Of a stretch of DNA of 64,000 nucleotides, positions 1 through 21,858 are shown piece by piece. The translations under genes were made by a program, and so were the position numbers. Each line of letters begins with the position of its first letter. Position 1 is the stretch's first letter. Location: NCBI GenBank assembly GCA_030920305.1, contig JARLUB010000005.1, positions 1-64,000 of the forward strand. The letters are read 5' to 3'. The stretch is from Eubacteriales bacterium SKADARSKE-1. GTDB lineage: Bacteria; Bacillota; Clostridia; Oscillospirales; Acutalibacteraceae. Below the pieces are notes generated by a model. The model ran no database searches. It was not told the DNA's origin and saw only the letters and a program-made list of their open reading frames with translations.

Positions 1-1137
1 AATGATACTTATTATGCAGTTCTAAACTTAAAAGAAGGAGGCAAATATAAACAAAATTGGGTTTCTATAAAATTAAATACAAAAGGTAATAAAAGACGTG
101 CAAATGAAAATTTAAAATAAATTAATAGCTTAATATGAAGAAAAAGAGACGAATTCAAATACAAATAACATCTTAATTTTCGGATTATTTAATGCAATGG
201 TTGGAAAAGAAAAAAGATAAAGTTGAAATAATAACTTTTGAGGGGGATAAAACACAAGCTGAAAAGCATATTTTCCCCTATTTTCAAAAAAAGAAGCTTA
301 ATTTGTCTGAAATAAAACCATCTCATATTGCAGATTATTACGAAAATAAATTTAGAAGTGGTCGTCTCGATGGCAAAAAGGGCGGTCTATCAATTCGTAC
401 AATAAAAATGCAAAGCTTTATCATTAAATCTGTTTTAGAAGAAGCAGCTTTCTATGAGCTAATACTGAGAAATCCTGCAGCGAAAGTACCCTTACCGAAA
501 AAAGAAGACGAGGAAAGTAAAGGGGGTTTTCTTGACGCGAAAGAAGCAAATGATGTTTTAAAATTATTTCGTGATCATCACTTACAACCTTTAATTTACA
601 TGACATTGTATTATGGGTTGCGTCGTAGCGAAGTGTTGGGGCTTAAATGGTCCGCTATAGATTTTGAAAATGATATTGTCGAAATAAAGCATACGGTTGT
701 TAAAAACCTTACCATAGTAGCTAAAGACAAAACTAAAACTGCCGCTGGGAAACGAAAATATGCCTTACTTCCAGAAATTAAAGATGTTTTAATCGATTTT
801 AAAAATACAATTAAAACTAATAAAAAAAATTTTGGAGACACCTATATAAATACTGATTATGTTTTTACTTGTCCGGATGGAAAGCCCTACAGACCAGATT
901 ACATAACCAAAGAGTTTCAGAAAGTGTTAGCAAATAATGATTTCCCCAAAATGCGGTTTCACGACCTGAGGCATAGCTGTGCAAGCATATTATACGACAA
1001 GGGCTGGGGGCTGAAAGATATACAAACTTGGTTAGGTCATGCTGGCATTGAAACAACAGCGGATATATACACACATATTAGCCATACCAGAAAAAAATGC
1101 TATGGCCAAAGATATTCAAAATACTTTTTCTTTGTGA
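1..1137 (+). pseudogene. decayed tyrosine recombinase (phage/ICE integrase)
   Basis: This is a site-specific tyrosine integrase of the conjugative-transposon or phage type, now broken. Bases 1-117 encode the end of an arm-binding domain (YYAVLNLKEGGKYKQNW, then a KGNKR motif) and stop at a TAA at 118. The core and catalytic domain resume in another frame: homology restarts near 177 (FSD, then MQWLEKKKD from 192), directly after an in-frame TAA at 174. It continues through LYYGLRRSEVLGLKW, HDLRHS and WLGHAGIETT, which contain the catalytic Arg, HxxR and His. Near 1092-1100, at a run of seven A, the frame shifts again; the expected C-terminus (MAKDIQNTFSL, with the Tyr in IYTHIS just before) is in frame 1 and ends at 1137. 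The 5' end lies outside the window. It is probably non-functional unless the shifts are sequencing errors. Confidence 0.85.
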
Positions 1138-1189
1138 ATAATGTGTTCAAGAAAATTCGTAGAAAAATTCTTAGAAAAGCAGGTTTTGT

Positions 1190-1241
1190 TCAAAAACAAA
1201 ACCCCCGCACAAACACTGAAAATTCAGTATTCATGCGGGTT
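1190..1241 (-). terminator. rho-independent terminator after tRNA-Pro
   Basis: An inverted repeat CCCGCA (1204-1209) / TGCGGG (1234-1239) with an inner CTGAA/TTCAG stem is followed on the minus strand by a T-rich tract (TTTTGTTTTT). It lies just past the 3' end of tRNA-Pro and would end the tRNA-Gln/tRNA-Pro transcript. Confidence 0.75.
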
Positions 1242-1250
1242 AGTGTATGG

Positions 1251-1324
1251 TCGAGGTGACAGGAGTCGAACCTGCGGCCTCTGCGTCCCGAACGCAGCAC
1301 TCTACCAAACTGAGCCACACCTCG
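1251..1324 (-). tRNA. tRNA-Pro (anticodon CGG)
   Basis: A full cloverleaf can be folded on the minus strand. The acceptor stem is CGAGGTG/CACCTCG with discriminator A, the D arm contains GGTAGAG, and the anticodon stem CTGCG/CGCAG encloses the loop TTCGGGA, giving anticodon CGG. The T arm contains GGTTCGAGTCC. CCA is not encoded. Its 3' end points at the integrase remnant, which makes it the likely attachment site of that element. Confidence 0.95.
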
Positions 1325-2296: not shown

Positions 2297-3211
2297 ATGA
2301 GTTTAGCAATGTTTGTTTTAGTAGGATTAATAATACTTGTTGTTTTAATTGTGATTTCTAATATTAAAGTAGTTTCTCAAGCAAGTTCTTATGTGGTAGA
2401 ACGTTTAGGTGCATATCATGCTACTTGGGAAACAGGACTTCATGTGAAGGTTCCTTTTGTTGATAGAATAGCAAGAAAAGTTTCATTGAAAGAACAAGTA
2501 GTAGATTTTCCCCCGCAGCCAGTTATAACTAAAGATAATGTAACTATGCAAATTGACACTGTGGTTTATTTTCAAATAACAGATCCTAAACTTTATACAT
2601 ATGGTGTAGAAAGGCCAATTTCTGCAATAGAAAATTTAACCGCAACAACGCTTAGAAACATAATAGGAGATTTGGAGCTTGATCATACTTTAACTTCGCG
2701 CGATGTTATAAATACAAAAATTCGGGTAATTCTTGATGAGGCAACAGATGCTTGGGGTATAAAGGTTAACAGAGTTGAACTTAAAAATATTTTACCGCCA
2801 AGAGAAATTCAAGACGCGATGGAAAAGCAAATGAAAGCAGAACGCGAAAGGCGCGCCAAGATTCTTGAAGCTGAAGGTGAAAAACGCAGTGAAATTTTAG
2901 TGGCTGAAGGGCATAGAGAAGCTGCGATTTTAAGAGCTGACGCGGTACGTGAAACAAAAATCAGAGAAGCTTTGGGTGAAGCGGAGGCTATTATTTCTGT
3001 TCAAAAAGCATATGCAGATAGTTTGAAAATGTTAAATGAGGCAGCACCAACAGAAAAAGTTATTGCACTAAAAAGTTTAGAAGCTTTTGCTAAAGCGGCC
3101 GATGGCAAATCAACAAAAATTATTATTCCATCTGAAATACAATCGCTTGCAGGGCTTGCAACTTCTTTAAAAGAATTTGTAACAGATAATAAAAATATTG
3201 AATCTAAATAA
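2297..3211 (+). CDS. SPFH/Band 7 (stomatin-like, QmcA type) membrane protein
   Basis: A 304-residue stomatin/prohibitin-type scaffold. An N-terminal membrane anchor (about 3-22) leads into the SPFH domain with VVERLGAYHATWETGLH, a typical Band 7 opening, and DNVTMQIDTVVYFQITDP. A highly charged coiled coil follows (about 175-240, with repeated AEGEKR/AEGHRE patterns), then a C-terminal region with IIIPSEI. Proteins of this family oligomerise on the inner leaflet of the cytoplasmic membrane and work with NfeD partners. It is encoded directly downstream of nfeD, and a strong terminator follows 21 bases after its stop. Confidence 0.93.
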   Translation: MSLAMFVLVGLIILVVLIVISNIKVVSQASSYVVERLGAYHATWETGLHVKVPFVDRIARKVSLKEQVVDFPPQPVITKDNVTMQIDTVVYFQITDPKLYTYGVERPISAIENLTATTLRNIIGDLELDHTLTSRDVINTKIRVILDEATDAWGIKVNRVELKNILPPREIQDAMEKQMKAERERRAKILEAEGEKRSEILVAEGHREAAILRADAVRETKIREALGEAEAIISVQKAYADSLKMLNEAAPTEKVIALKSLEAFAKAADGKSTKIIIPSEIQSLAGLATSLKEFVTDNKNIESK

Positions 3212-3232
3212 TCTTAACATTCTAATAATAAT

Positions 3233-3272
3233 TGCACTATGCTAATTTGATAGTATGGTGCATTTTATTATT
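3233..3272 (+). terminator. terminator of the nfeD-SPFH operon
   Basis: TGCACTATGCTA and TAGTATGGTGCA pair as a 12-base-pair stem with two G-U pairs, followed by TTTTATTATT. Confidence 0.85.
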
Positions 3273-3324
3273 AGGAGGCAAAATAAAAGGTGCAGATTAA
3301 CCTGGGATAATAAAGTAAAAGGAT

Positions 3325-4305
3325 TTGATTGCTTTGTTAAAAATTTTAAAGATAATCCTACCAATTATTTTAATCTTTAGTTTTACTCCTTGTAAGGTTA
3401 TAGCTCAGTCAGAAATGAGCATGTCTTTAGTTCCTAATATAAATAATCCAGTGTCAGGAGAGGCAATAGCAGTAAATTTTTCTGTAGAACCAAATAGTGA
3501 AATAAATATTGCTACCTTTAGACTAAGAGTTTCTTTTGATAGCACAAAGCTTAAATATAATGGAATTTATTCTAATTTTGGAACAGATGACTTTAAAACG
3601 TATTTATCAGGAAATAACCTAACGGTAATATATTTGACAAGTGAAACTGGGGTTGATATTAGTGCTAGTCCAACTGACTTTTTAGAGTTAGATTTTAAGG
3701 TGCTTTCTACCGCTGGAGCAGGGGCTACAACAATTAGCGCACAAATAGATGGTATTGGAAATTATGATGCAGTAGAGCTTGCGGCACCAGAAATTGGAAA
3801 CGCAAATCTTGAAATTTCTATGGTGCCGGCAGCTGACTGTAATTTAAAATCTTTAACAGCCGAAGGTTATAAGCTTACACCAAGTTTTTCACCAAGTGTT
3901 ACACAATACTACGCAACTGTTCCGTCTACAAAAAGTACTATAAATATTTCGGCTGAAACTAATGACAGTGAAGCAGTTGCAAAAATTAGTCGAAAGACTT
4001 TAAATGCAGCTGGAAAAACTACTGATATAAAAATAACTGTAACGGGTTCTGACAATAAATCTAAAAAAATATATACTGTAACAGTTAAAAGAAATTTAAA
4101 AGATACAGATTCCTCTAGTGATTCTTCTAGCAATTCTTCAAATAATGAAAGTAAGTCAAGCTCCTCAACTAATACCAATTCACAAGGTAGAAACTCAGGG
4201 ATTTCTCTGATAAAAAACAACTTTAACTTTATTTTATTTTTTGTAATTATGGCAATTTGCATAGTAATCGCAAAAATTGTTATCAAAAAAAAGAAAAAAG
4301 AGTAA
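3325..4305 (+). CDS. membrane-anchored cohesin-like surface protein
   Basis: About 326 residues. An N-terminal signal peptide ends near IAQS (about 28). Residues 32-165 resemble a cohesin-type beta sandwich (SLVPNINNPVSGEAIAVNF, FRLRVSFDSTKLKY, DFLELDFKVLSTAG). A cadherin-like beta-sandwich domain follows (about 170-257: LKSLTAEGYKLTPSFSPS, ending YTVTVKR), then a Ser/Asn-rich linker (about 262-292) and a C-terminal membrane helix with a Lys tail. It should sit on the outer face of the membrane and bind carbohydrate or a dockerin-like partner; its ligand is unknown. The start is uncertain: TTG at 3325 or TTG at 3334, both near AAAAGG. A better AGGAGG at 3273 serves a different frame, a GTG at 3290 that stops after six codons. 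Confidence 0.72.
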   Translation: MIALLKILKIILPIILIFSFTPCKVIAQSEMSMSLVPNINNPVSGEAIAVNFSVEPNSEINIATFRLRVSFDSTKLKYNGIYSNFGTDDFKTYLSGNNLTVIYLTSETGVDISASPTDFLELDFKVLSTAGAGATTISAQIDGIGNYDAVELAAPEIGNANLEISMVPAADCNLKSLTAEGYKLTPSFSPSVTQYYATVPSTKSTINISAETNDSEAVAKISRKTLNAAGKTTDIKITVTGSDNKSKKIYTVTVKRNLKDTDSSSDSSSNSSNNESKSSSSTNTNSQGRNSGISLIKNNFNFILFFVIMAICIVIAKIVIKKKKKE

Positions 4306-9484: not shown

Positions 9485-9614
9485 ATAATTGTCGTTGTGA
9501 GGAGAAACGTGTTAAACTTGTTTAATTTTCTAAAAAATACTCTATAAACATGATACACAAATTTACACTTTTTAGGTTGTCGGCTGTATATGAAAGTGTG
9601 TTCTTATTAATAAA

Positions 9615-9650
9615 TGTGCCCATTCCACTATGGTAAGTGGAATGGGCACA
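9615..9650 (-). terminator. terminator of the giant gene
   Basis: TGTGCCCATTCCACT and AGTGGAATGGGCACA form a perfect 15-base-pair stem with a six-base loop, 48 bases beyond the stop of the giant gene; the minus-strand tail is TTTATTAA. Confidence 0.8.
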
Positions 9651-9697
9651 TAATAAAAGTTTTAAGCTATACCTCCTTCTTCTTTTTGGTCTTTAAC

Positions 9698-12600
9698 CTA
9701 TTGACCTTTAAAAAGCTCCTCTATTGCTTCTCTTTGAAGTTTTAACATGTTTCCTGGCTTTACTTTAAAAATTTTTACGTTACTAATTAATGCCTGTCTC
9801 TCTTCTTCGCCCATAGCCCTAAGTTTTTCACCAACTGCATTTCGTTCCATCAACTTACTGTTAAGAAGAATTCTTGCAAAGTTTTGCCTTTCTACACTCT
9901 CAGCCTTTCTGCTGTTGGTATTGGTGAATACTAATTTGTTTTCTTCTTGGCCAACTATATATCCATTTCCATCTGACACAAAAATTTCAATATTTCCTTC
10001 ACGATTAATATCAACTCTAGTTGTTGCAAGTTTTAAAACAGATGAAATTTTTGCCTCTTGACAAGATAAATATTGTTCTTCCTCCAAAAAGCAAATGCCT
10101 GTTGGGTTATTTAAAACATTTTTTGTAATTTCTAACCTTTCTTCAGGTTTTAAAATTCCGAGGTTGACTAGGTGGTCAATTTCAAGCCGTACTAGCTCTT
10201 GTTTAAAGCTACCTTCTGCTACTCTTAACTTACTATCTTCATTCATAACAAAATAAAGTGTTAAGCGGTCTTGGGAAAGCCGAGCTTCATCTACACCTAA
10301 ACCTACTAAAGTTTCAAGTGATCCTTTCCTTACTAACTTATTATCTTCTTGTCTAAAGAAAACACTAAGCTCTCGGTCCATTCTTATGTTGGCATCTTTT
10401 AAAGCAATTTCAGTTATATTATAAGCGTCATCGCCAGCAACTCCTTTTAAGGCTTCCATTGTCAAAATGCTTCTTGCAGGTGCCGTACATTCAACAGTCT
10501 TGCTACCAAATTCATATTTAAAGTAACCATTTCCTACTTTAACAGATCTAAATAATAATTTATTACCTTCATATACCGACGCCCTGCAATAATCTTCATT
10601 TCTTACTAAAGGATTTATACCAGGCGCAGCATCAACTATTACTCGCAAATGTTCGCTTATAAAAGCTAAAATTTGTTGGTCTGTAGCATAAAAGGGTAAA
10701 CCTGCATTTTCTAAGGCACCTCTCTTGACTTTATACAACTCTGCGCGAACTAACCCAATTAAAGTATCTTTATTTAAACCTAACTCTTGACCTTTAGGGC
10801 TAATCTTCAAGTTACAATTATATAGTCCATCATCTTTATTAATTGAAAACTTAAAATCAGTTAAAAGCCCAAGTTTAGTTCGCATTTCTGCTGCCAGTGT
10901 ATTTGTTCCAAACTCTACTTTTTCCATATAGTAATATACTTTACCACTAGTATCATGCCAACCGAATCTCTTTAGTTCTGCATCAATTGCAACTGTTGTA
11001 GTTTTATCATGGTAAACATATTTCAAGGTATTAAGGTTATTATGCAACATAGCCCATTTTAACATAGTTGCTGTTACTATTATTGGTTCTGATTTGTCGG
11101 CTCTTTCATCTTTAATAGTAACATAGTTTCTAGTAAAATTGTATTCTAAAGAGACACCTCGATACAAGGCAAGTTTACTTTTCATAACTCCTTCAACAAT
11201 CTTCAAACCAAATACTTCGTCTTGTGCTGCCTTACCATCCTCATCAATTTTCCAGCCATCTTGAATTAAAGCCTCATCTAGATTAGGTACCAATCCATCT
11301 TTCGTCCACACGTCAAATTTAACTGCAGTGATTTCATACCCCGAAAGTGCTTCTATTTTTTCAAGATCGGCTTTTGCAAAAGTAGATTTTAAATTTCCTG
11401 ACGCAGATACTCCTATTTTGTCTTGATCTACAAAATAATCAAAGGTTACCAATTCATCAGTACTAGACACAACATACACTCGTGAAATTTCATCTGCAAC
11501 ATCTCTAAATATAACAGAGTTTTTTAGTGTAGAATATAACATAGGAGCACCTATAATGTTAACAGTTACACCGGAAATATCCTCGTTTGCGCCTTGTTTA
11601 AAGTTTGAATCCGAAAGATTTTCTAAAATGATCCTCAGAACCTCTGGATTTAGCTCGTCACTAGCTTCTTCTTTAAATTTAATAGTCAGTTGAGTACTAT
11701 CGTCATTAATGCTAATAGAATCTATAGCCGCTCTAAATGTTATGGCATCGTACTGTTCTTGGGTTAATAAACAAACACCCTTAACACTTCTATTAACTGA
11801 GTAGTTTTCCCCAACAACACACCAAACATTTTGTTCGCCGCGCTCATCATCAAGCATTTCTTGTGTAATTTCAACACGATCTTCTTGATTCTCACGGTTA
11901 TCAACAAAGCGCACCACACCACTTTCATATCGTAGCTCATATTTAGTTTTGTCGGCCTCTTGCAGTGTGGCTAGTTTAACTTCAGCTAGTTTTATCAGGT
12001 CCGCTTTGCCAGGCCATCCTGGTAGATCACTTAACTCTTCTAGTTTTGCTTGGCAAGTTGCTACCGGCTTGTTTTCTGTAGTGGCATCACTAATATTGGC
12101 AATGGCTTTGCGCTCTTTTTGCACTAGCTCCGCTAACCTATTTTGCGCTGCGGTTATCATATTTTTATCTAAAATTTTTTGATACTTATCTTTCTCAGAA
12201 CGTGATTCAGTCTGTACTAGGTTTAGCGAATAAAGAACCTTATTTATAGATACGGTTTTTTCTATCTCTTCTTTAGCTTCCTTGGCTGCTATTGAAGGTA
12301 AAGCTTTTTCTGTTGCAACAAGTTCGGCCTGCAGTTCCCTTTGAAGCTTTTTATTGTTTTCTTGCTTACTTAAATTAATTTTGTCATTTAATTCACTTAT
12401 TCTTCCTAAACAATCAGCAATTGTAGTAATCCGTCCAACTCTGGCTAACATTTCATCTATTTTATATTTATAATTTCCAAAAAGCTTACCACTTACGTCA
12501 ATCCAGCCTGCCTTTTCCATTGTCTCATCTAATTTTATTTGCTGTCCATCTGCAACCTCAAATTTTTCTATGTGTCTGCCACCTAATTCTTGTTCTAATA

Positions 12601-15600
12601 GATAAATATCTGTAGCCGTTATAGTTGGAATTGTTGAATTTTCATGGGTAACTATCAATAAATTTTTAGATTCGGCAAAGCTTAGCACTTCGCCCCATTC
12701 AGTTCTAACAGATTTAACTTCTGCATTTGCAATACGTGTAGCTTCTTCTGCTGCTGCCTTTATACGTGCTTCTTCTACACGCTCACTTTCATCACTTGCT
12801 GCATAAAGTTCTTCTTCCCCTTCTGCTTTACCTGCCTGGAATAAAACATTCATAAACTTACCTTCGTCGCCAACTGCCCAGCCATCCCTTGTTAAATCAT
12901 TGTCCAATAGAGGTGACACTGCTTTCGAACTAACATCTATAAATTTAGCTGCAGTGATTTTATCTCCCAAAAGTGCTTCTATTTCTTCAAGATCAGCTTT
13001 TGCAAAGGTAGGTTTTGCTGTGAAATCATCTACATATACCGCTATTGTTTTCGAATTTACAAAATAAATAAATTCTACTAATTCATTACTCTTAGATCTA
13101 ATATTCACCTTTTCAACTTTATTTTCGCTATTTTTATATATAAAAGAGTTTTTCGTTTTATTTATTAGAGTCTCATTACCTATAATGTTAACAGTTACTC
13201 CGGAAATATCCTCGTTTGCGCCTTGCTCAAATTTTGAATCTGAAAGATTTTCTAAAATGATCCTCAGAACCTCTGAAGATATTTCATGAAAAACTTCTTC
13301 TTTAAATTTAATAGTCAGTTGAGTACTGTCGTCATTAATGCTAATAGAATCTATAGCATTTCTAAATACTATAGCATCATACTCTTCTGGGGTTAATAAG
13401 CAAACACCCTTAACGCTTTTGTCAATTCCGTAGTTTTCCCCAACAACACACCAAACATTTTGTCCACCGCGCACCTTATCAAGCATTTCTTGTGTAATCT
13501 CAACAACATCTTCTTGGTCCTCACGGTTATCAACAAAACGCACCACACTATTAGCATATTGTAGCTCATATTTAGTTTTATCAGCCTCTTGCAGCTCAGC
13601 TAGTTTAGCTTCAGCTAGTTTTACCAATTCTCGCTTACCGCCCCATTCTTTTAGAGCTCTTAATTCTTCTAGTTTTACTTGGCAAGCTGCTACTGGTTTG
13701 TTTGCTGCAGTTTCGTCGCTAATGGCCTCAATAGCTTCGCGCTGTTGTTGCTCTAGCTCTGCTAACCTTTTTTGCACTGCGGGTGGTACAATATTTCCCA
13801 GAATTTGTTGATACTTTTCTTTCGTACTAGCCTGTTTTCCGTTTATAATATCAAGACATTCATTTATAGATACAATTCTTCCGACATCTTCTTTAACTTG
13901 CTTGGCTGCTATTGAAGGTAAAGCTTTTTCTGTTGCAGCAAGTTCGTCTTGTAGTTTCTTTTGGTTTTTGGGGTTATTTCCCTCCTTATAGAATTTTATT
14001 TTATCTTTTAATTCATCGATTCTTGCCATATAAGCATCAATTGTAGTAATTTGCGCAACTCTGGCTGCTATTTTATCTATTTTGTATTTATAATTGCCGA
14101 AAAATTTACCACTTACGTCAATCCAGCCTGCTTTTCCCATTGTTTCATCTAATTTTATTTGCTGTCTATTCGCAACGTCAAATTCCTTTATACGTCTGCC
14201 AAAACCTATCTCTTGTTCCAATGAGCGAATATCTGCCGCCGTTATAGTTGGAGTTTTTGAGTATTTATGGGTAACTATCAATAAATTGTTAGATTCAGCA
14301 AAACTTAGCACTTCGCCCCCTTCAGTTATAACAGATTTAACTTCTGCCTTTGCAATATGTGTAGCTTCTGCGGCTGCTTCTTCTTTTATACGCGTTGCTT
14401 CTCCTGCTTCTTCTCCTTCTTCTTCCTCTGCCTCTTCTTCTGCCTCTTCTGCTTTTATACGTTCTTCTCCTGCTTCTTCTCCTTCTTCTTCCCCTGCCTC
14501 TTCTTCTGCTGCTGCTTTTATGCGTGCTTCTTCTTCTTTTATACGTGCTTCTTCTACACGCTCACCTTCATCAATTGCTGCATAAAATTCTTCTTCCCCT
14601 TTTACTTTACCTGACGGGAATAAAACATTCTTAAAATTACCTTCGCCGTCAACTGTCCAGCCACCTTCCTTTAAAGCCTCGTCTAGGTCAATTTCATATG
14701 GTTGCCACCTCCTAGCATCTACAAAGAACCCAAACTTAATTTCAGGGGTTTTATAACCCAAAAGTGCTTCTATTCCTTCAAGATCAGCTTTTGCAAAAAC
14801 AGGCTTTACATCTTCTGGTGCAGCTACTTCTATTGTTTTTTTACCTACAGTATATTCAAAGATTACTGAGTTATTAGTACTAGACTCAATACTCACTTGT
14901 ACAATTTTATTTGAAGCATCTCTATATATAACATGGTTTACTAATGTAATCCTTAACTCAAAGTTATCTATAATGTTAACAGTTACACCTGAAATATCCT
15001 CGTTTGCTCCTCTCTGAAATTTTGAACCCGAAAGACTTTCTAAAATGATTCTCAGAACCGCTGGCGTTAACTTAGCATCAGTTTCTGTTTTAAATTTAAT
15101 ATTCAGTTGAGTACTATCGTCATTAATGCTAATAGAATCTATAGCATCTCTAAATTCTATGAGATGATACGCGTATGGGTCTAATGCACAAACACTCTTA
15201 ACACCTTCGGAAATTTGGCCGTATTCGCCAACAACACACCAAACATTTTGTCCGCCGCGCACATCATCAAGCATTTCTTGTGTAATCACAACATTATTTT
15301 CTTGGTCCTCACGGTTATCATCAAGGAACACTACACCATTTTCATATCGTAGCTCATATTTAGTCTTGTCAGCCTCTTCCAGTTCGGCAAGTTTAGCTCT
15401 AGCAAATTCTACTAGTCCCTCTTTACCAGGCCAGTCTGGTAGATAACCCAAAGCAACCAAATTCAAATGACAAGTAAATACTGGCTTGACTTCACTAGCA
15501 GCATACCCTTCAATCTTCGTACGCTCTAATTGCTCTAGCTCTGCTAACCTATTTTGTGCTGCGGCCGCTCCAAGATTTCCCACAATTTGTTGATACTTAT

Positions 15601-18600
15601 CTTTCGCAGAACGTAAATTAGCCTGGTTTATGTTTATAAAATTAAGACAATCACGTAGATTCTCGATTGATCCAACAAATTCTTTAGCGTCCTTAGCCGC
15701 GAGTAAAGGTAAGACTGCTTCTGTTGCAGTAAGTTCGGCTTGTAGTTGTTGTTGATACTTTTTGTTATTTTCTCCCTCACTTAAATTAATTTCGTCATTC
15801 AATTTTCCGATTCTTACCAGGCAAGCATCAGCTGTAGTAATCTGTGCAACTCGATTGGGATTTTGCTTTTTATCCACTGCTTTTAAAGCTTCCATGCACT
15901 GATCTATCTTTATATCACATTCATTTGCAAATATAACTTCCTCATTTTCTGGATCCTTATAGGTAAATTTTTCTAAAATCTCTTTATATTTATCCAATAG
16001 ATCGCAAAAATTTCCGATCTCCAAAACTAAAGATTCACTTTCCTCTAAATTTAGTAAGATAACTTTTTCACGCACTTTGTCTTTTAACTTTTTCAAGCTT
16101 TCAAGTTTTTTATTTACAATTGTATTAACAGAGGTAGGATGATAATCTTTCGGTACTGAACGTTCTGCCTCTGTAGATTTTACCACTTTTGACTCCATAA
16201 ATGATTGGACTTTCAATTCATATGCTTTTAAGGTATCAGAATCAAGGGGTCCTTCAAGCTCTTTATATATTGCCTTTAAAGCTTGAATACACTCCACTAT
16301 TTCTTCGACACATTTATTTGCGATGTCCACATCTGCAACATTTGGGCCATGTCCAGACTGAATTTTTTTAAAAGTACCTGTATGGTTGTCCAAAAATTTG
16401 CAAAAATCATCAATATTCTGAACAAGAAGTGTTTTATTTTCTGAAAGTAATGTCAAATCTTTACCAAGCATTTTGTCGCTTAAATCTTTTAATTCTTTAT
16501 GGTATTCATTTACTATGCCCAAGATGCCGTGATAGACAGGAGCCTCTTCTTTTGCATGTAAAAGTTCTTGCGCCCTTAATTCCATAAATGGTTTGAATTC
16601 CTTAGAAAAACTTGTTAATTTATCATTAGCAATATTAATGAATCTTTCATATTCGGCCTTTGCGTCGGCTGCTTCTGCTGCGGCGCTTGTTGTTTCAGGT
16701 GCTTGTGGTTTATCCTGTATAAAATTATAGTTCATCCAAAAGAACCAACTACTGTTGTCTTTCCACCCATTTGCTTTCAATGCGTCGTCTAGTTCCACCT
16801 TATATCCAGTGTTAACGACTTCAATTTTTTCAAATTTACCATATCTACTCTGAAGCTCCTCAATATCTTTGAGCATTATGATTGATTTTTTTAAGCCATT
16901 TTTTGGAACAAGTTTTAATTGCTTCGTAACTTCATTATACGTCGTCTTACTTTCATCAAATCGGTCACTAAAACTTTGGGGTATTGCGTTTGCATCAGCT
17001 GTTGGTATTGTTGGTTGTTTTAGTTCTTGTTGCTGAGGTTGGCCAGGGGTAGTAGATTTGTGGGTTGTTGTGGCTTCAGGTATTGCAGCGGTGGCTGTTA
17101 TTGTTGTGGGGGCAATGGTGGTTGTTGTTTCAGGTGCTTTTGTCGTATCTTTTACAAAAACAAAGATGCCCGGGTATCGAACATTACTTTCTTTCCACCC
17201 TTGTTCTTCCAATTCCTCGCTTAGTGCCACATGCTCTGCTATGCCATAGAGTGTAATTTGATTAATTTCACGATGTCTACTTTGAAGACCTTCAAGATCC
17301 TCAAGATCCTTGAGCGTTATGAGTAAATTCTTTACGCCTAATTTTATATTAAGTGATATTCTTTTCTCAGGTAAATTATACGTCGTCATATCTTCAAAAA
17401 ATCGGTTGCTAAGGCCTTCGAGTGATGTGGTGGCAGGGGTAGTAGGTAATGCCGGTTGCGAGCCAGATTTTAAATGGGTCGGTTGTGCATTTTGTTGTTG
17501 AGACGCTTGTGGTGTCACCCTTTGAAAAATATAATTATTCGAGCCTGGATCTTTATATTCTTTCCACCCTTGTTCTTTCAATGTCTCGTCTATTTCCACT
17601 GTTGATTTACCGTTCGGATGGATAATAATTTCATTAAATGTACCATATTGACTCTCAAGCTGCCTAATATATTCATCTGTTAGGGTTATCTTTTGATCCA
17701 TCTTTAGCTGAAGTATTATTTTCTCCTCAACTAAATAATAATTCGTTAGATTTTCAAAAAATGAGTCCCCAGGGTTTTGTACTTGAGCCGCTTTTCCTTT
17801 TGTCATGGTGGCTGTTTGGTCTGGTTGCTGTACTTCTTGAGTTCTAGCAAGATCTGCTGTTCTCGCGGGGCCCCTTGTGGTAGCTGTTGTGGTTGCAACA
17901 GCTTTTGGTTGTGCATCCATTGCTTTCAAAGCCTCAATGCATTCCCTTACCTTTGCTTCGCATCTAAATAAAAGTCTCATTTCCTCATCGGTTAGACCTC
18001 TAGAGCTAATTTTTCTTAAAGTCGCTGTATTGATATTTAAGAACTCGTAAAAATCACTGATTGTTTCAAATGTCCTAGAATTTTCCACAGATAATGATAG
18101 CCGTTTTGTTTCTATTTTGCTTTTTAATGCTTTCAATTGTGGGAGACGTTCATTTATAATTACAGCGACGAGGCCCTTAAGAGGAACATCCTTTTCTACT
18201 GCTGCCAAAGCTGAAAGTTCTTCACTTTTTGACGTCAAAAATGTTATGAACTCTAACTTATATGCTTTTAAAGTATACTCAAAGGAGTTTTCAATTTGTT
18301 TATTCATTACTTTTAAAGTTTCAATGCACTGCATTATTTTTGTATTGCATTCAGTTACAAGTGCTATCTGCTCATCGTTTAGAACTTTCATGTTAACTTG
18401 TTTTAAATCACCTGCACGAACTATAAATAAAGTGTAAAACCATGAAATTTCCTCAAATAAATCCTGACTGGTTTGGGGTAATAAATTCGAATTTTTCTCT
18501 ACTTTTTCTTTTAAATTTTTCAAGTCTTCGAGAGTTTTGTTCATTACAACGAAGAAGTTATCAGGAAGCGATCCCTTTTTTCCCTCTTCCAAATTTGAAA

Positions 18601-21600
18601 GTTTTTCCACATCGAAGGCAAGAAAGTTTACTAATTCTGTCCTATAAGCGTTTAAGGTGCCCTCATCAATAGATTTTGCAGATTGACCTTCTTCACTTTT
18701 TGTGGTTGCAGGTGTTGCCATAGACATTGGCAAGGATAATGGCGGTAAAACAAATTTGGTTACCGGATTAGCTGGCTGTGGCTGTGCTGGAGTTGGAGTT
18801 GTAGTTGTAGTTGTAGCTGCGGGGGTTGCAGCTGTTGGTGTGGATATTGTGGCCGCGGCCACTGGTGTTATTGGTTGTTGCTGCGGCTGCTGGTGTACTG
18901 TTTGAGTTGCTATAGTGACATTTTTTGCCTGCGCTGCTGCTTTTGCTGGATTTTTTTCAAACTTATAATTCCCATGCCATCTACTACTTACATCTTCCCA
19001 GCCTTCATCTAGCATTGTCTGGTCTAATTTTATTTGCTTCTTACCTTCAACTTCAAACTTGTCTATACTTTCGTGTTTTATTTCTTCTAATTTATGAATA
19101 ATTTCTGCAGTTATAGTTGGAACTTTACCAGTTTCAAGGACTACAAAAGAATCCTCACCAAAATGATATTCTAATTCTATATTATCTTTATCCCTAAGAG
19201 ATACATAAGTCATTTTTGGATCTGTTGCCTCTGCCCACCCGCCAAGATCATACATAATTGGTAACGTAGCCTCTTGTTTCTGAGGTTGGGCAGCAGTCGT
19301 ATCTTTTACAAAAACAAGGCTGCTCATGGATTGAGAATCATGTTTTTTCCACCCTTGTTCTTTCAATTCCTTGCTTAGTTCCACATGACCTGCTACGCCA
19401 ATGAGCATAATCTGCTCAAAAGATCGGCCAATAAGACGCTCAAGATCCCCAAGATCCTCGAGCGTTATGACAAAATTATTTACTCCTGATTTTATATTAA
19501 GTGCCACTAAATTCGTAGCAAAACTATACGTCGCCTTATTTACATCAAATCGGTCGCTAAGCCTTGGGGTCATTGCGGTTACATCAGCTGCTAGTTGTTG
19601 CTGTGCTTGTAGATGAGATTGGGGTCTTGGAGTAATTCGCGGTGGAAACGTTGATTCTTGTTTATTTTCAGCTGTTGGTGTGGATGTTGTGGTCGCAGCC
19701 GCTGGTGTTGTTGGTTGTTGCTGTACTTGCATTTGAGGTTGGGCAGCAGTAGATTTGGGGGTTGTTGTGGGTGTTTTAGTTGCAACAGCTGCTAGTTGTG
19801 CATCCATTGCTTTTAAAGCTTCTATACACTGCATCACTTTTGGATCACATTCAGCTACAATTTGACTCTCTCTAGCCGTTAGACTGTTCATGCTAATTTG
19901 TTTTAAAATCTCTGCACGAGCATTTAATAAATCGTAAAAAAATGAGACTTGCGAAAATAAATCCTGACTGGTTTTAGGTAAGTAATTCAAATTTTTATTT
20001 ACTTTTTCTTTTAAAGCTTTCAAAACTTCTAAATTTCTGTTCGTTACATTGAAGACGTTATCAGGAGGAAGCGATACCTTATTTCCTGCTTTCAAATCTG
20101 AAATGCCCTTTGCAATATTGTTAATAACCTCTGTTAAATTTACCCTATAACCCACTAAGGTGCTTTCATCAATGGGTTTTGCAGATTGACCTTCTTCACC
20201 TTTTTTGGGGGTTGCAGCTGTTGGTGTGGATATTGTGGTGCTTGCTTTTTCAGGCGCTCCTGCCATATCATTTTCAAAAACATAGGAAGCCGTGCTTTGA
20301 TCTGTAAGTTCTTTCCACCCTTTTGCTTTCAAATTCTCATCTATGTCCACTTTTTTTTGTCCGTTGTAACCGATGATAATTTTATTAATTACACCACCAC
20401 ACTTACTTTTAAGATGCTCAATATGCTGGTCTGTAAAGATCATAATATTTACGCCTGGTTTTTGAAAAAGCCTTGCTTCGTGCGTTTCTGGGAAATATTC
20501 GCTCTTGCCTTCATCAATTAGGTCGCTAAAGTTTTGTTCATGGCTCGCTTTTCCTGTTGCAGCTGCTGTTGGTTGTTGCTGTACTTGTTTTTGAGGTTGG
20601 GTAGCAGTAGATTTGGGGGTTGTTGCTGTGGGTGCTTGTGGTATACCCTTTCTAAACAAATGGTAACTAGGGTGTGCAAACATAACTTCTGTCCACCCTT
20701 GTGCTTTCAATGCATCATCTACTTCCACTGGATACATGGTGTTATTGACTTTAAATTCATTAAAGTCACCATATTTATTCAGAAGCATCTTAACATATTC
20801 ATCTGTCAGGGTTAATTTTTTTTCTGTATTTGAAAAAAGTTCTATTAGCTTCTTATCAGCATTATATGTCACATTAATTTCATTAAGCTGGTCGCTAAAG
20901 CTTTGTACTTGACCCGCTTTTCCTGTTGTGCCTGTTTTTGTGGTTGTTGTGGCTTTTTGACCCGTGCCCATAGCTTCCGCTTTGGGAATTAATCTAAATG
21001 TTGTTAAATCACCATTTTTTTCGCCCTCACCAAATCCCAGATTTTCTAAATCCCTACTTAGTTCTGGGGTCCCTTTTCCTTTGTATTCAATAATCGTTAT
21101 ATCACTTAAGGGCTTCCCTTTTATTTGCAAAAAAGTATTTATCAAAGATTTAATTATTGGAACGGAGACATTTCCACTTTTTGTATCGGTAATAACAACC
21201 TTATTAGCACCTTCCAGCTTATATCTTAGATGCGAAATATCTTGGGGGTTCGCTGCTGGTGTTGCTGGGTTTGCCTGTGTTGCTGGTGTTACTGGTTTTG
21301 TCGGTGTTTCCGATTTTGCCGGATTAGTTGTTTTGACCTGCTGGCTACTTGTAAAACTACTGCGCAATGAGGCTCTATTAGAATGACTCCTACCTGCACT
21401 GACTGTGCCAGATGAGCCAAGCATTGCAATAGCCGAAAGCCCCATTAGTGCCGACAAACACATAACGCTTGTCCGCACACCTAAACCACCACTTACATCT
21501 GCTAAACTTTCTGCATCTAATTTTATAGCATTAGATTTTAATGTTTGTTGTTCATATTCGAATAATTCTTCAGCTGTAAAATTAAATCCCTGCTTTTTTG

Positions 21601-21754
21601 CAAATGGAATTGTAACTTCTTTTGTTATTACATCAAAAAGCTTTTTAGGATCTGAAATTTGTTTATATTTTTCTTTAGTTACCTCTAGTTTTTCTTGAAA
21701 ATCTTTGTCGCTCGAAACTTTTTCATAAAATCCCTTAATTTTCTCCTTATTCAT
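9698..21754 (-). CDS. giant 4018-residue modular repeat protein with a Nif11-like leader
   Basis: One uninterrupted frame, AAAGGAGT before the ATG and its own promoter and terminator. Order of parts: residues 1-90 a Nif11-like leader ending SLADVSGG; 93-120 a hydrophobic stretch ending TVSAG, like a signal peptide or membrane anchor; Pro/Thr/Gln/Ala-rich linkers; seven to eight copies of a roughly 75-residue domain ending L(K)xxGWK...Y.F between residues about 170 and 1680, interspersed with helical repeats bearing a CX6C pair; three long tandem repeats (about 1970-3515) that also contain Gly-Trp domains; and a unique C-terminal 500 residues. Two acidic Glu/Ala-rich stretches lie in the repeats. 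I recognise no enzyme motif. It could be an exported adhesin or structural surface protein; the leader suggests export by a C39-peptidase ABC transporter, but none is in the window. Function unknown. Confidence 0.85.
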   Translation of the reverse strand: MNKEKIKGFYEKVSSDKDFQEKLEVTKEKYKQISDPKKLFDVITKEVTIPFAKKQGFNFTAEELFEYEQQTLKSNAIKLDAESLADVSGGLGVRTSVMCLSALMGLSAIAMLGSSGTVSAGRSHSNRASLRSSFTSSQQVKTTNPAKSETPTKPVTPATQANPATPAANPQDISHLRYKLEGANKVVITDTKSGNVSVPIIKSLINTFLQIKGKPLSDITIIEYKGKGTPELSRDLENLGFGEGEKNGDLTTFRLIPKAEAMGTGQKATTTTKTGTTGKAGQVQSFSDQLNEINVTYNADKKLIELFSNTEKKLTLTDEYVKMLLNKYGDFNEFKVNNTMYPVEVDDALKAQGWTEVMFAHPSYHLFRKGIPQAPTATTPKSTATQPQKQVQQQPTAAATGKASHEQNFSDLIDEGKSEYFPETHEARLFQKPGVNIMIFTDQHIEHLKSKCGGVINKIIIGYNGQKKVDIDENLKAKGWKELTDQSTASYVFENDMAGAPEKASTTISTPTAATPKKGEEGQSAKPIDESTLVGYRVNLTEVINNIAKGISDLKAGNKVSLPPDNVFNVTNRNLEVLKALKEKVNKNLNYLPKTSQDLFSQVSFFYDLLNARAEILKQISMNSLTARESQIVAECDPKVMQCIEALKAMDAQLAAVATKTPTTTPKSTAAQPQMQVQQQPTTPAAATTTSTPTAENKQESTFPPRITPRPQSHLQAQQQLAADVTAMTPRLSDRFDVNKATYSFATNLVALNIKSGVNNFVITLEDLGDLERLIGRSFEQIMLIGVAGHVELSKELKEQGWKKHDSQSMSSLVFVKDTTAAQPQKQEATLPIMYDLGGWAEATDPKMTYVSLRDKDNIELEYHFGEDSFVVLETGKVPTITAEIIHKLEEIKHESIDKFEVEGKKQIKLDQTMLDEGWEDVSSRWHGNYKFEKNPAKAAAQAKNVTIATQTVHQQPQQQPITPVAAATISTPTAATPAATTTTTTPTPAQPQPANPVTKFVLPPLSLPMSMATPATTKSEEGQSAKSIDEGTLNAYRTELVNFLAFDVEKLSNLEEGKKGSLPDNFFVVMNKTLEDLKNLKEKVEKNSNLLPQTSQDLFEEISWFYTLFIVRAGDLKQVNMKVLNDEQIALVTECNTKIMQCIETLKVMNKQIENSFEYTLKAYKLEFITFLTSKSEELSALAAVEKDVPLKGLVAVIINERLPQLKALKSKIETKRLSLSVENSRTFETISDFYEFLNINTATLRKISSRGLTDEEMRLLFRCEAKVRECIEALKAMDAQPKAVATTTATTRGPARTADLARTQEVQQPDQTATMTKGKAAQVQNPGDSFFENLTNYYLVEEKIILQLKMDQKITLTDEYIRQLESQYGTFNEIIIHPNGKSTVEIDETLKEQGWKEYKDPGSNNYIFQRVTPQASQQQNAQPTHLKSGSQPALPTTPATTSLEGLSNRFFEDMTTYNLPEKRISLNIKLGVKNLLITLKDLEDLEGLQSRHREINQITLYGIAEHVALSEELEEQGWKESNVRYPGIFVFVKDTTKAPETTTTIAPTTITATAAIPEATTTHKSTTPGQPQQQELKQPTIPTADANAIPQSFSDRFDESKTTYNEVTKQLKLVPKNGLKKSIIMLKDIEELQSRYGKFEKIEVVNTGYKVELDDALKANGWKDNSSWFFWMNYNFIQDKPQAPETTSAAAEAADAKAEYERFINIANDKLTSFSKEFKPFMELRAQELLHAKEEAPVYHGILGIVNEYHKELKDLSDKMLGKDLTLLSENKTLLVQNIDDFCKFLDNHTGTFKKIQSGHGPNVADVDIANKCVEEIVECIQALKAIYKELEGPLDSDTLKAYELKVQSFMESKVVKSTEAERSVPKDYHPTSVNTIVNKKLESLKKLKDKVREKVILLNLEESESLVLEIGNFCDLLDKYKEILEKFTYKDPENEEVIFANECDIKIDQCMEALKAVDKKQNPNRVAQITTADACLVRIGKLNDEINLSEGENNKKYQQQLQAELTATEAVLPLLAAKDAKEFVGSIENLRDCLNFININQANLRSAKDKYQQIVGNLGAAAAQNRLAELEQLERTKIEGYAASEVKPVFTCHLNLVALGYLPDWPGKEGLVEFARAKLAELEEADKTKYELRYENGVVFLDDNREDQENNVVITQEMLDDVRGGQNVWCVVGEYGQISEGVKSVCALDPYAYHLIEFRDAIDSISINDDSTQLNIKFKTETDAKLTPAVLRIILESLSGSKFQRGANEDISGVTVNIIDNFELRITLVNHVIYRDASNKIVQVSIESSTNNSVIFEYTVGKKTIEVAAPEDVKPVFAKADLEGIEALLGYKTPEIKFGFFVDARRWQPYEIDLDEALKEGGWTVDGEGNFKNVLFPSGKVKGEEEFYAAIDEGERVEEARIKEEEARIKAAAEEEAGEEEGEEAGEERIKAEEAEEEAEEEEGEEAGEATRIKEEAAAEATHIAKAEVKSVITEGGEVLSFAESNNLLIVTHKYSKTPTITAADIRSLEQEIGFGRRIKEFDVANRQQIKLDETMGKAGWIDVSGKFFGNYKYKIDKIAARVAQITTIDAYMARIDELKDKIKFYKEGNNPKNQKKLQDELAATEKALPSIAAKQVKEDVGRIVSINECLDIINGKQASTKEKYQQILGNIVPPAVQKRLAELEQQQREAIEAISDETAANKPVAACQVKLEELRALKEWGGKRELVKLAEAKLAELQEADKTKYELQYANSVVRFVDNREDQEDVVEITQEMLDKVRGGQNVWCVVGENYGIDKSVKGVCLLTPEEYDAIVFRNAIDSISINDDSTQLTIKFKEEVFHEISSEVLRIILENLSDSKFEQGANEDISGVTVNIIGNETLINKTKNSFIYKNSENKVEKVNIRSKSNELVEFIYFVNSKTIAVYVDDFTAKPTFAKADLEEIEALLGDKITAAKFIDVSSKAVSPLLDNDLTRDGWAVGDEGKFMNVLFQAGKAEGEEELYAASDESERVEEARIKAAAEEATRIANAEVKSVRTEWGEVLSFAESKNLLIVTHENSTIPTITATDIYLLEQELGGRHIEKFEVADGQQIKLDETMEKAGWIDVSGKLFGNYKYKIDEMLARVGRITTIADCLGRISELNDKINLSKQENNKKLQRELQAELVATEKALPSIAAKEAKEEIEKTVSINKVLYSLNLVQTESRSEKDKYQKILDKNMITAAQNRLAELVQKERKAIANISDATTENKPVATCQAKLEELSDLPGWPGKADLIKLAEVKLATLQEADKTKYELRYESGVVRFVDNRENQEDRVEITQEMLDDERGEQNVWCVVGENYSVNRSVKGVCLLTQEQYDAITFRAAIDSISINDDSTQLTIKFKEEASDELNPEVLRIILENLSDSNFKQGANEDISGVTVNIIGAPMLYSTLKNSVIFRDVADEISRVYVVSSTDELVTFDYFVDQDKIGVSASGNLKSTFAKADLEKIEALSGYEITAVKFDVWTKDGLVPNLDEALIQDGWKIDEDGKAAQDEVFGLKIVEGVMKSKLALYRGVSLEYNFTRNYVTIKDERADKSEPIIVTATMLKWAMLHNNLNTLKYVYHDKTTTVAIDAELKRFGWHDTSGKVYYYMEKVEFGTNTLAAEMRTKLGLLTDFKFSINKDDGLYNCNLKISPKGQELGLNKDTLIGLVRAELYKVKRGALENAGLPFYATDQQILAFISEHLRVIVDAAPGINPLVRNEDYCRASVYEGNKLLFRSVKVGNGYFKYEFGSKTVECTAPARSILTMEALKGVAGDDAYNITEIALKDANIRMDRELSVFFRQEDNKLVRKGSLETLVGLGVDEARLSQDRLTLYFVMNEDSKLRVAEGSFKQELVRLEIDHLVNLGILKPEERLEITKNVLNNPTGICFLEEEQYLSCQEAKISSVLKLATTRVDINREGNIEIFVSDGNGYIVGQEENKLVFTNTNSRKAESVERQNFARILLNSKLMERNAVGEKLRAMGEEERQALISNVKIFKVKPGNMLKLQREAIEELFKGQ
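11220..12441 (-). repeat. long repeat copy C of the giant protein (shorter)
   Basis: It begins RVGRITTIADCLGRI and runs through TKYELRYESGVVRFVDNRE, ITQEMLDDERGEQNVWCVVG, IDSISINDDSTQLTIKF and ISGVTVNII to DEALIQDGWKIDE. It lacks the Glu-rich segment and the second Gly-Trp domain seen in copies A and B. Boundaries are approximate. Confidence 0.8.
12442..14064 (-). repeat. long repeat copy B of the giant protein
   Basis: It begins RVAQITTIDAYMARI and ends with the domain containing AGWIDVSGKLFGNYKYKID. The DNA is closely similar to copy A in several blocks, for example around 12460-12540 against 14080-14165, which points to recent duplication. Confidence 0.82.
14065..15848 (-). repeat. long repeat copy A of the giant protein
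   Basis: It begins RVAQITTADACLVRI, has a coiled-coil part, then an all-beta-looking part (VVITQEMLDDVRGGQNVWC, IDSISINDDSTQLNIKF, ISGVTVNII), a Gly-Trp domain, an acidic Glu/Ala stretch and a second Gly-Trp domain. About 595 residues. Confidence 0.82.
14362..14570 (-). repeat. acidic Glu/Ala/Gly low-complexity stretch
   Basis: This part of the giant gene encodes about 70 residues built from EEEAGEE and RIK units. The DNA is an imperfect TTCTTC/TTCTGC repeat on the plus strand and probably a slippage hot spot. Copy B holds only a short remnant of it. Confidence 0.85.
15865..16250 (-). repeat. helical CX6C repeat 5
   Basis: About 125 mostly helical residues, from DSDTLKAYELKVQSFMES to CDIKIDQCMEALKAVDKK. 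The paired cysteines six residues apart are conserved with the other four copies. Confidence 0.75.
16251..16655 (-). repeat. helical CX6C repeat 4
   Basis: From YERFINIANDKLTSFSKEF to CVEEIVECIQALKAIYKEL; same layout as copy 5 and directly adjoining it. Confidence 0.72.
17905..18292 (-). repeat. helical CX6C repeat 3
   Basis: From FEYTLKAYKLEFITFLTS to CEAKVRECIEALKAMDAQ. It follows copy 2 without a linker. Confidence 0.75.
18295..18670 (-). repeat. helical CX6C repeat 2
   Basis: From DEGTLNAYRTELVNFLA to CNTKIMQCIETLKVMNKQ. The middle contains LPQTSQDLFEEISWFY, closely matching copy 1. Confidence 0.75.
19800..20172 (-). repeat. helical CX6C repeat 1
   Basis: From DESTLVGYRVNLTEVINN to CDPKVMQCIEALKAMDAQ, with LPKTSQDLFSQVSFFYDLL in the middle. 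Confidence 0.75.
21485..21754 (-). other. Nif11-like leader region with double-glycine site
   Basis: Residues 1-90 of the giant protein. KIKGFYEKVSSDKDFQEKL, the ISDPKKLFDVITKE helix, KKQGFNFTAEELFEYE and the end LDAESLADVSGG match the layout of Nif11-type RiPP leader peptides (TIGR03798): helix, acidic GF.FT..EL motif, then L..VSGG. Identification is by pattern only. Cleavage after GG (residues 89-90) would be the expected site. Confidence 0.72.
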
Positions 21755-21829
21755 AACTATGTACTCCTTTCAATTTCCTTTATTTGGTTATTATCATTCA
21801 CAATATTTCCATTTTAAACTATTAAATAT

Positions 21830-21858
21830 ATTATATCACTTCGATATAGCAAAATCAA
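21830..21858 (-). promoter_or_regulatory. promoter of the giant gene
   Basis: Minus-strand TTGATT (21853-21858), a 17-base spacer and consensus TATAAT (21830-21835), about 75 bases upstream of the ATG. Confidence 0.75.

Follow-up and report, generated by a model that had tools for sequence, protein, structure and literature searches.

In the window (the whole stretch of 64,000 nt that was analyzed; 32.4% GC), the minus strand carries a gene for a protein of 4018 aa, P0001 (9698..21754), which is composed of a Nif11-type leader, a segment resembling a Sec signal, a linker and a long run of repeats. The first-pass annotation had treated it as a single odd fusion; it is instead a member of a gene family, as large Nif11 proteins are present in several reduced genomes. 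We see an even chance that P0001 is an exported giant with a two-step signal, which would be cut by a C39 peptidase at its GG site and then taken over by Sec, and that it is directed at a host.

The frame starts with an ATG at 21754 and its stop codon ends at 9698. Assuming independent bases of the window's composition, 4018 open codons would occur by chance with a probability of ~10^-137; the uninterrupted frame reported earlier is real, though it lies on the minus strand. It had also been credited with its own promoter, ribosome site and terminator. A ribosome site (aaaggag) precedes the ATG (21755..21772, minus strand; read from the sequence, borders approximate), and a strong terminator-like hairpin of 16 pairs (9614..9651, minus strand) begins 47 bases past the stop, such matches being in excess in the region (16 vs. 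9.0 in shuffles). The promoter-like site TTGATT-17-TATAAT (21830..21858, minus strand; 76–104 bases upstream, 10/12 consensus match with a TG before the second hexamer) is plausible by consensus only, but matches of this kind are no commoner than in shuffles (38 vs. a mean of 38.2). Based on Pfam domains, the downstream neighbours are CtsR, McsA-, McsB- and ClpC-like, while M50, M23 and HtrA-like peptidases and a two-component pair are located upstream, 172 bases off; no hint of a peptide-modification cluster was found among the twenty neighbours scanned. A phage-type integrase lies close to the contig start (window 192-1259, plus strand), with an SPFH/Band 7 protein near it (2297-3211, plus strand).

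Residues 1-90 (21485..21754, minus strand), ending in L-A-D-V-S-G-G, had been described as a Nif11-type leader with a double glycine, and this description holds. In the genome search, the best stretch of the leader scored 29.7 bits against TIGR03798 and 39.8 bits together with its in-frame neighbours (cut-off 32.3), and S-G-G was invariant across an alignment of nine leaders from the same genome. The Nif11 HMM search proposed with the description gave a divided result: the TIGR03798 cut-off was passed in frame, but the Pfam model (PF07862) stayed below its own (21.3 vs. 23.8 bits) and an hmmscan search of NCBIfam with the full-length protein gave no hit at E ≤ 0.1. We consider that the identity of the leader stands despite these weak scores, because the one score is backed by the nine-leader alignment and by the dN/dS of leader pairs. 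The latter ranged from 0.09 to 0.34 in eight paralogue/orthologue pairs (P0001 not among them), rough values given that several pairs are close to saturation at synonymous sites and that genes recur among the eight; judged by them, the leaders are under purifying selection.

The leader terminates in GG89-90 and is followed by 3928 residues, so the core is not short. Positions -12, -7 and -4 before the GG are L, L and V, which is the hydrophobic pattern of C39 substrates as described for PCAT leaders (PMC12184118). In order to place P0001 among its relatives, Nif11 proteins from the fetched loci were divided into a large set (n = 36, at least 150 aa past the GG) and a short set (n = 54). These remained from 102 HMM hits after the removal of 7 duplicates, 1 false ATPase and 4 rows without a filter-passing GG (one ending in AG, one without GG and cut by the locus end, and two with a GG missed by the filter); the GG site of L074 was assigned by hand. 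The hydrophobic -12/-7/-4 pattern was present in 35/36 large and 46/54 short proteins (paralogues and relatives, not independent draws) vs. 10 of the 385 other GG sites, a background comprising every open frame in the six-frame translation of these loci, without gene calling. The conservation of the GG itself in these sets is partly by construction, since loci were chosen for leader matches and the filter required a GG.

Searches for further genes with the same leader and for C39-peptidase ABC exporters, both suggested by the first-pass annotation, were successful, and the resulting family is stronger evidence for the leader than the scores. P0001 residues 1-141 match nine frames of its own genome (4023, 2060, 852, 805, 570, 504, 204, 179, and 139 aa), and six frames of 504-4023 aa carry a Nif11 leader. 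The one of 852 aa is cut off by the end of its contig; homology to it extends from the 504-aa frame into a second, overlapping frame. Two overlapping frames on contig C2 (L028:4554-7282 and L029:1-2558) have a single-frame counterpart on contig C10 of this genome, and may represent either a paralogue in decay or an error of assembly. TIGR03798 matches were found in 21 places, 18 of them in short frames of 85-178 aa, and 12 of these 18 form an array (C19:68204-72464) that adjoins an NHLM export system (C19:73225-78574). This system, ~51 kb away from P0001 and thus not adjacent to it, has all three genes (TIGR03794/03796/03797) above cut-off. In a second NHLM system, on contig C17, the C39-ABC passes (911.8 vs. 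a cut-off of 853.3), while its partners fall short (second ABC 705.0 vs. 709.4; HlyD-like 102.4 vs. 156.2). C39-ABC, present twice in the genome, aligns over its full length with PCAT1 (4ry2; E 1.2e-96, residues 9-723). The earlier suggestion of export therefore holds as far as exporters and sister genes are concerned, and the refuting outcome named with it (neither a Nif11 HMM hit nor exporters or sister genes) did not materialise; what it had overlooked is the eukaryote-type cargo of the sister protein P0002, described below.

Several observations were made on the short Nif11 genes. The far end of the short array is occupied by a DUF7005 protein that bears an HECTH motif, both here (L011:6985-7863 on C19, assigned by Pfam) and in a related genome, G046 (L088:16600-17493, assigned by eye), which makes it a candidate partner or processing peptidase. 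The array peptides (L011:7877-13205) have diverse cores, some of them ending in similar TATAQGxxAxSNPT-like stretches. A separate short family with a similar core, xAAxKVxxKxIVxxAxxxA, occurs in the genome of P0001 (G000; L030:7677-8069), in G046 (L066:4890-5237) and in G041 (L064:7479-7877), and is a putative conserved small substrate.

The genome was also searched for peptide-modifying enzymes, as the leader had been proposed to act as a docking domain for one of them. Nif11 leaders do serve RiPP enzymes elsewhere (PMC2887384), and P0001 could on that precedent be a giant RiPP precursor, its leader guiding such an enzyme. The docking proposal found no support, given that neither LANC_like nor YcaO had a match in the genome, and the "many" Cys residues once noted amount to 0.8% (32 residues; Ser 5.7%, Thr 7.1%). 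We therefore regard a giant RiPP precursor as highly improbable and RiPP modification of P0001 as unlikely. YcaO had no match in any of the 23 genomes searched (that of P0001 included), and LANC_like had none in 20 of the 23; two full LANC_like genes were found in G103 (G103:C19:60326-64666), and partial ones with stops in G107 and G119, so that at least one reduced genome (G103) may still make lanthipeptides.

The genome of P0001 is 1.38 Mb in size and encodes an ATP/ADP translocase (PF03219, E 2.5e-132). Among 99 genomes of relatives, its own included, the translocase was found in five (G000, G005, G033, G041, and G046), the last four being members of the same family with translocases 47-68% identical to that of G000. 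NHLM ABC1 (TIGR03796, more specific than C39 and searched in these 99 only) was above cut-off in 5/5 translocase genomes and in 1/94 others (G061), with near misses in G065 (10 bits short) and G036 (25 bits short); Fisher's exact test of translocase vs. NHLM gave p 8e-8, though the five genomes are one clade and not independent events. UCH domains were present in 4/99 genomes, all among these five. The leader alignment (A1) matched 7/99: the five translocase genomes (in G033 only in a 161-aa frame), G093, where the match is weak and has two stops, and G030, where it is false, the protein being an ATPase.

A contig search with a translocase alignment found 39 loci, 24 of which belong to Clostridia, Oscillospiraceae, Ruminococcaceae or Eubacteriales records and represent 22 genomes (the copies of G005, G033, G041, and G046 included), all of which were searched. 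TIGR03798 matched in 20/22 and had no match in the other two, and Nif11 frames of at least 400 aa (stop-to-stop lengths) were found in 11/22, 21 frames in total, with no such frame in the remaining 11. A C39 domain is present in 22/22 (in frames of 716-777 aa in 21 genomes, and of 312 aa in G112), but C39 is common by itself, as it was also found in 8/14 control genomes. Of 390 other Clostridia genomes used as a Nif11 control, 14 had matches, at least 25 altogether (a lower bound, since at most 15 candidates were scored per genome), 24 of these 25 being in frames of 77-163 aa and one being a partial match in a 324-aa frame. Among the Clostridia sampled, large proteins with Nif11 thus mark the translocase clade.

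The small genome clade of Acutalibacteraceae described in PMC10579323 includes three members that were found inside termite-gut protists; its genomes carry the ATP/ADP translocase and eukaryotic-like genes, ubiquitinyl hydrolases among them, and at least 20 of 42 eukaryotic-like proteins were assigned there to Sec by predicted signal peptides. The words "Nif11" and "bacteriocin" do not occur in the main text of that paper. G000 appears to group with reduced gut Clostridia like these protist endosymbionts, and is a probable parasite of gut protists.

The earlier account of the N-terminus was right about the leader but overlooked what comes directly after the GG, a signal-like segment that recurs in 36/36 large proteins. 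In P0001, this segment (residues 91-120, LGVRTSVMCLSALMGLSAIAMLGSSGTVSA; 21395..21484, minus strand) has a hydropathy of 2.15 over 13 residues, one preceding K/R and an A-x-A-like end, so that by these simple measures its charged, hydrophobic and A-x-A regions follow each other in the order of a Sec signal. A Ser/Thr/Pro-rich linker (residues 121-180, by eye; 21215..21394, minus strand) separates it from the repeats. As the segment begins at residue 91, it is not at the N-terminus of the primary product, and it would become N-terminal only if the protein was cut at the GG.

We measured the first 35 residues past the GG in both sets, using the mean hydropathy over a 13-residue window. A value of at least 1.2 was reached by 36/36 large vs. 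17/54 short proteins, and one of at least 1.5 by 32/36 large proteins, 9/54 short ones and 163/7200 stretches of 35 residues drawn at random from the large set. K/R ahead of the hydrophobic core was present in 33/36 large proteins, acidic residues were absent up to the core end in 31/36 large vs. 5/54 short ones, and A-x-A occurred past the core in 20/36 vs. 5/54, the remaining 16 large proteins missing it in the tested stretch. L139 (GG|KGNFNRFMAASLLAITGLTGVVNANQAYA) and L151 (GG|TNLATKLSASALTAVQALTMISPANA) are examples of such segments, while those of P0004 to P0006 and of the G041 giants look more like anchors. Overall, the hydrophobic post-GG segments of large proteins appear to be mostly shaped like Sec signal peptides. 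The core starts 3-11 residues past the GG in 32/36 large proteins, and therefore a cut at this site would leave a near-normal signal peptide.

Leader and cargo behave as separable parts. Leader identity over the eight pairs was 61-98%; in P0004/P0005, P0004/P0006 and the L146 pair, conserved leaders precede cargo that has diverged much further or shows no relationship, whereas L139/L143 is the reverse case, with a leader less conserved than its cargo. The cargo behind the leader includes lipase/Mbeg1-like (L140, L151), PARG (L138), APH-like plus peptidase MA (L139, L143) and AAA+ (L068, L142) domains as well as coiled coils; no named domain was found in the G041 giants. UCH domains stand behind Nif11 in G000, and also in G046, where a fragment at a contig end (L080) is below the Pfam cut-off. 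Another contig-end frame, which starts inside the leader (L148, G114), resembles the UCH frame L077 of G046. By contrast, no Nif11 precedes the UCH frames of G005 and G033, whose N-termini look signal-like by eye, and among AAA+ homologues L137, with its Nif11-GG-segment, aligns with L065:16746-18001, with a plain signal-like N-terminus (27%, 278 aa, E 1.5e-12). Because related cargo swaps a plain signal-like N-terminus for the Nif11-GG-segment arrangement, we infer that the segment acts as a signal for Sec, and because of the C39-type pattern and the retained exporter, that the GG is cut. Where the first-pass annotation had considered a mature N-terminus at TVSAG from signal peptidase alone, we think both a GG cut and a signal-peptidase cut likely in P0001.

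In the mechanism that we propose, the Nif11 leader (residues 1-90) would dock on the NHLM exporter, whose C39 domain would cut after GG90 and so turn the internal hydrophobic stretch 91-120 into an ordinary N-terminal signal sequence. Sec would then carry P0001 across the membrane, where signal peptidase may free it. For the clade as a whole, we hold with slightly less than even confidence that intracellular Gram-positive parasites have made a bacteriocin exporter into a gatekeeper, with C39 removing a Nif11 lock and thereby unmasking the Sec signal. If true, this unmasking would make effector secretion depend on a second, regulatable step. Among the best matches listed in a search of the open-access literature, none reported a large protein with a Nif11 leader, or such a leader ahead of a Sec signal.

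The main rival to this two-step route is a type-I-like one, in which the NHLM ABC would cut at the GG and let the entire protein pass by its own pore, the segment serving as an anchor outside, in the bacterial or a host membrane. Leader, GG and C39 exporter agree with this too, several segments are indeed anchor-like without A-x-A, and type I systems of other kinds transport very large proteins. It would leave unexplained, however, the frequent order of K/R, hydrophobic core and A-x-A, as well as the plain signal-like N-termini on homologous cargo, and the C39-ABC substrates known to us are small peptides; we consider it possible but doubtful. The opposite simplification, Sec alone, would make Nif11 a passive or regulatory extension that C39 does not cut, the mature N-terminus being generated by signal peptidase. 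The likeness of the segment to a Sec signal agrees with this, as do the UCH and AAA+ relatives with plain signal-like N-termini, and Ax21, which is reported to be processed by the general secretory system (PMC3897388), calls for caution in taking a GG alone as a C39 site. Neither the C39-type pattern before the GG in 35/36 large proteins nor the purifying selection on leaders would have an explanation under Sec alone, which we find quite improbable.

Most of P0001 consists of repeats, as had been noted before, and these could be resolved into three kinds. Thirteen copies of a ~95-aa domain, here termed 'GW' (10913..20917, minus strand), were delimited by HMM, self-BLAST and alignment (residues 280-374, 403-500, 727-822, 847-939, 1321-1417, 1444-1540, 1589-1685, 2287-2385, 2469-2564, 2882-2978, 3010-3103, 3426-3521, and 3535-3614); the domain was modelled with a pLDDT of 86.9 and has one further copy in P0002 and three in P0004. 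Five ~130-aa copies (15860..20167, minus strand; residues 530-660, 1030-1158, 1159-1290, 1710-1838, and 1839-1965) are probably helical. Three tandem ~550-aa modules with approximate borders (10913..15943, minus strand; residues ~1938-2522, 2523-3062, and 3063-3614) are followed by a C-terminal region (residues 3615-4018; 9701..10912, minus strand), and P0001 has modules and this region in common with its sister P0004 (2054 aa). The Pfam scan of P0001 gave no family above its cut-off, and no recognised effector domain was found in it.

The sister proteins bear on the possible target. P0002 (793 aa as read) carries a ubiquitin-specific protease domain (PF00443, E 3.9e-42) behind its Nif11 leader, with aligned Cys and His boxes and with eukaryotic USP34, USP9X and USP47 as the closest among solved structures. 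In P0003 (L013:7752-9446), a proline-rich stretch precedes a WH2 match below threshold (E 0.015); the protein is possibly actin-binding. At least one large sister protein thus looks made to act on eukaryotic cells. The cargo might instead be antibacterial or adhesive, acting on other bacteria or as surface proteins and not on a host, which could be combined with any of the export routes. PARG, lipase and kinase-like domains, all present among the cargo, are also known from toxins between bacteria, and the P0001 repeats could form a stalk. We judge this unlikely in view of the P0002 domain, since ubiquitin is essentially eukaryotic, and of the translocase, which marks intracellular life. In the host-directed reading, P0001 is probably an effector of a reduced gut clostridium whose repeat domains would serve for binding or as a scaffold outside the bacterium, probably within the host cell.

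For the endosymbiotic Clostridia of protists, PMC10579323 proposes no route but Sec for the export of eukaryotic-like proteins. With a recognisable N-terminal module, candidate effectors could be listed from sequence, even giants in which no domain is known, and the proposed route would widen C39-ABC biology, so far one of small peptides, to proteins the size of effectors. Transport of the large Nif11 proteins by the ABC pore itself would be nearly as novel.

Known systems resemble P0001 in part. The extended signal peptides of autotransporters also place an N-terminal extension ahead of a Sec signal, and in the Fap hybrid secretion system a C39-family peptidase reportedly stands beside Sec-exported subunits; both belong to the Gram-negative envelope and are not known to have a Nif11 leader or a GG site. 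The NHLP-type C39 exporters of Legionella (PMC6959600) are of the same C39-ABC type and likewise come from bacteria living in protists, but are named there as putative bacteriocin exporters, and that account of them mentions no large protein with a Nif11 leader. MAM of Faecalibacterium (PMC12184118), from a related order of gut Clostridia, is bigger than usual bacteriocins and has a GG leader and a C39-ABC partner; it differs in its length of 135 aa, in its 21-residue non-Nif11 leader and in that its gene adjoins its PCAT in most species. With the N11P/NHLM systems (Haft et al. 2010, PMC2887384), P0001 shares the leader type and the Gly-Gly site, and its genome shares the TIGR03794/03796/03797 genes and the many paralogues. 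Unlike the N11P described there, the leader is followed by large proteins instead of short cores, with a signal-like segment past the GG, the genome has no LANC_like/YcaO match, and P0001 is not beside the exporter. The organism itself is closest in kind to the small genome clade (Takahashi et al. 2023, PMC10579323), with which G000 shares the character of reduced Clostridia, the translocase, the eukaryotic-like genes and the ubiquitinyl hydrolases.
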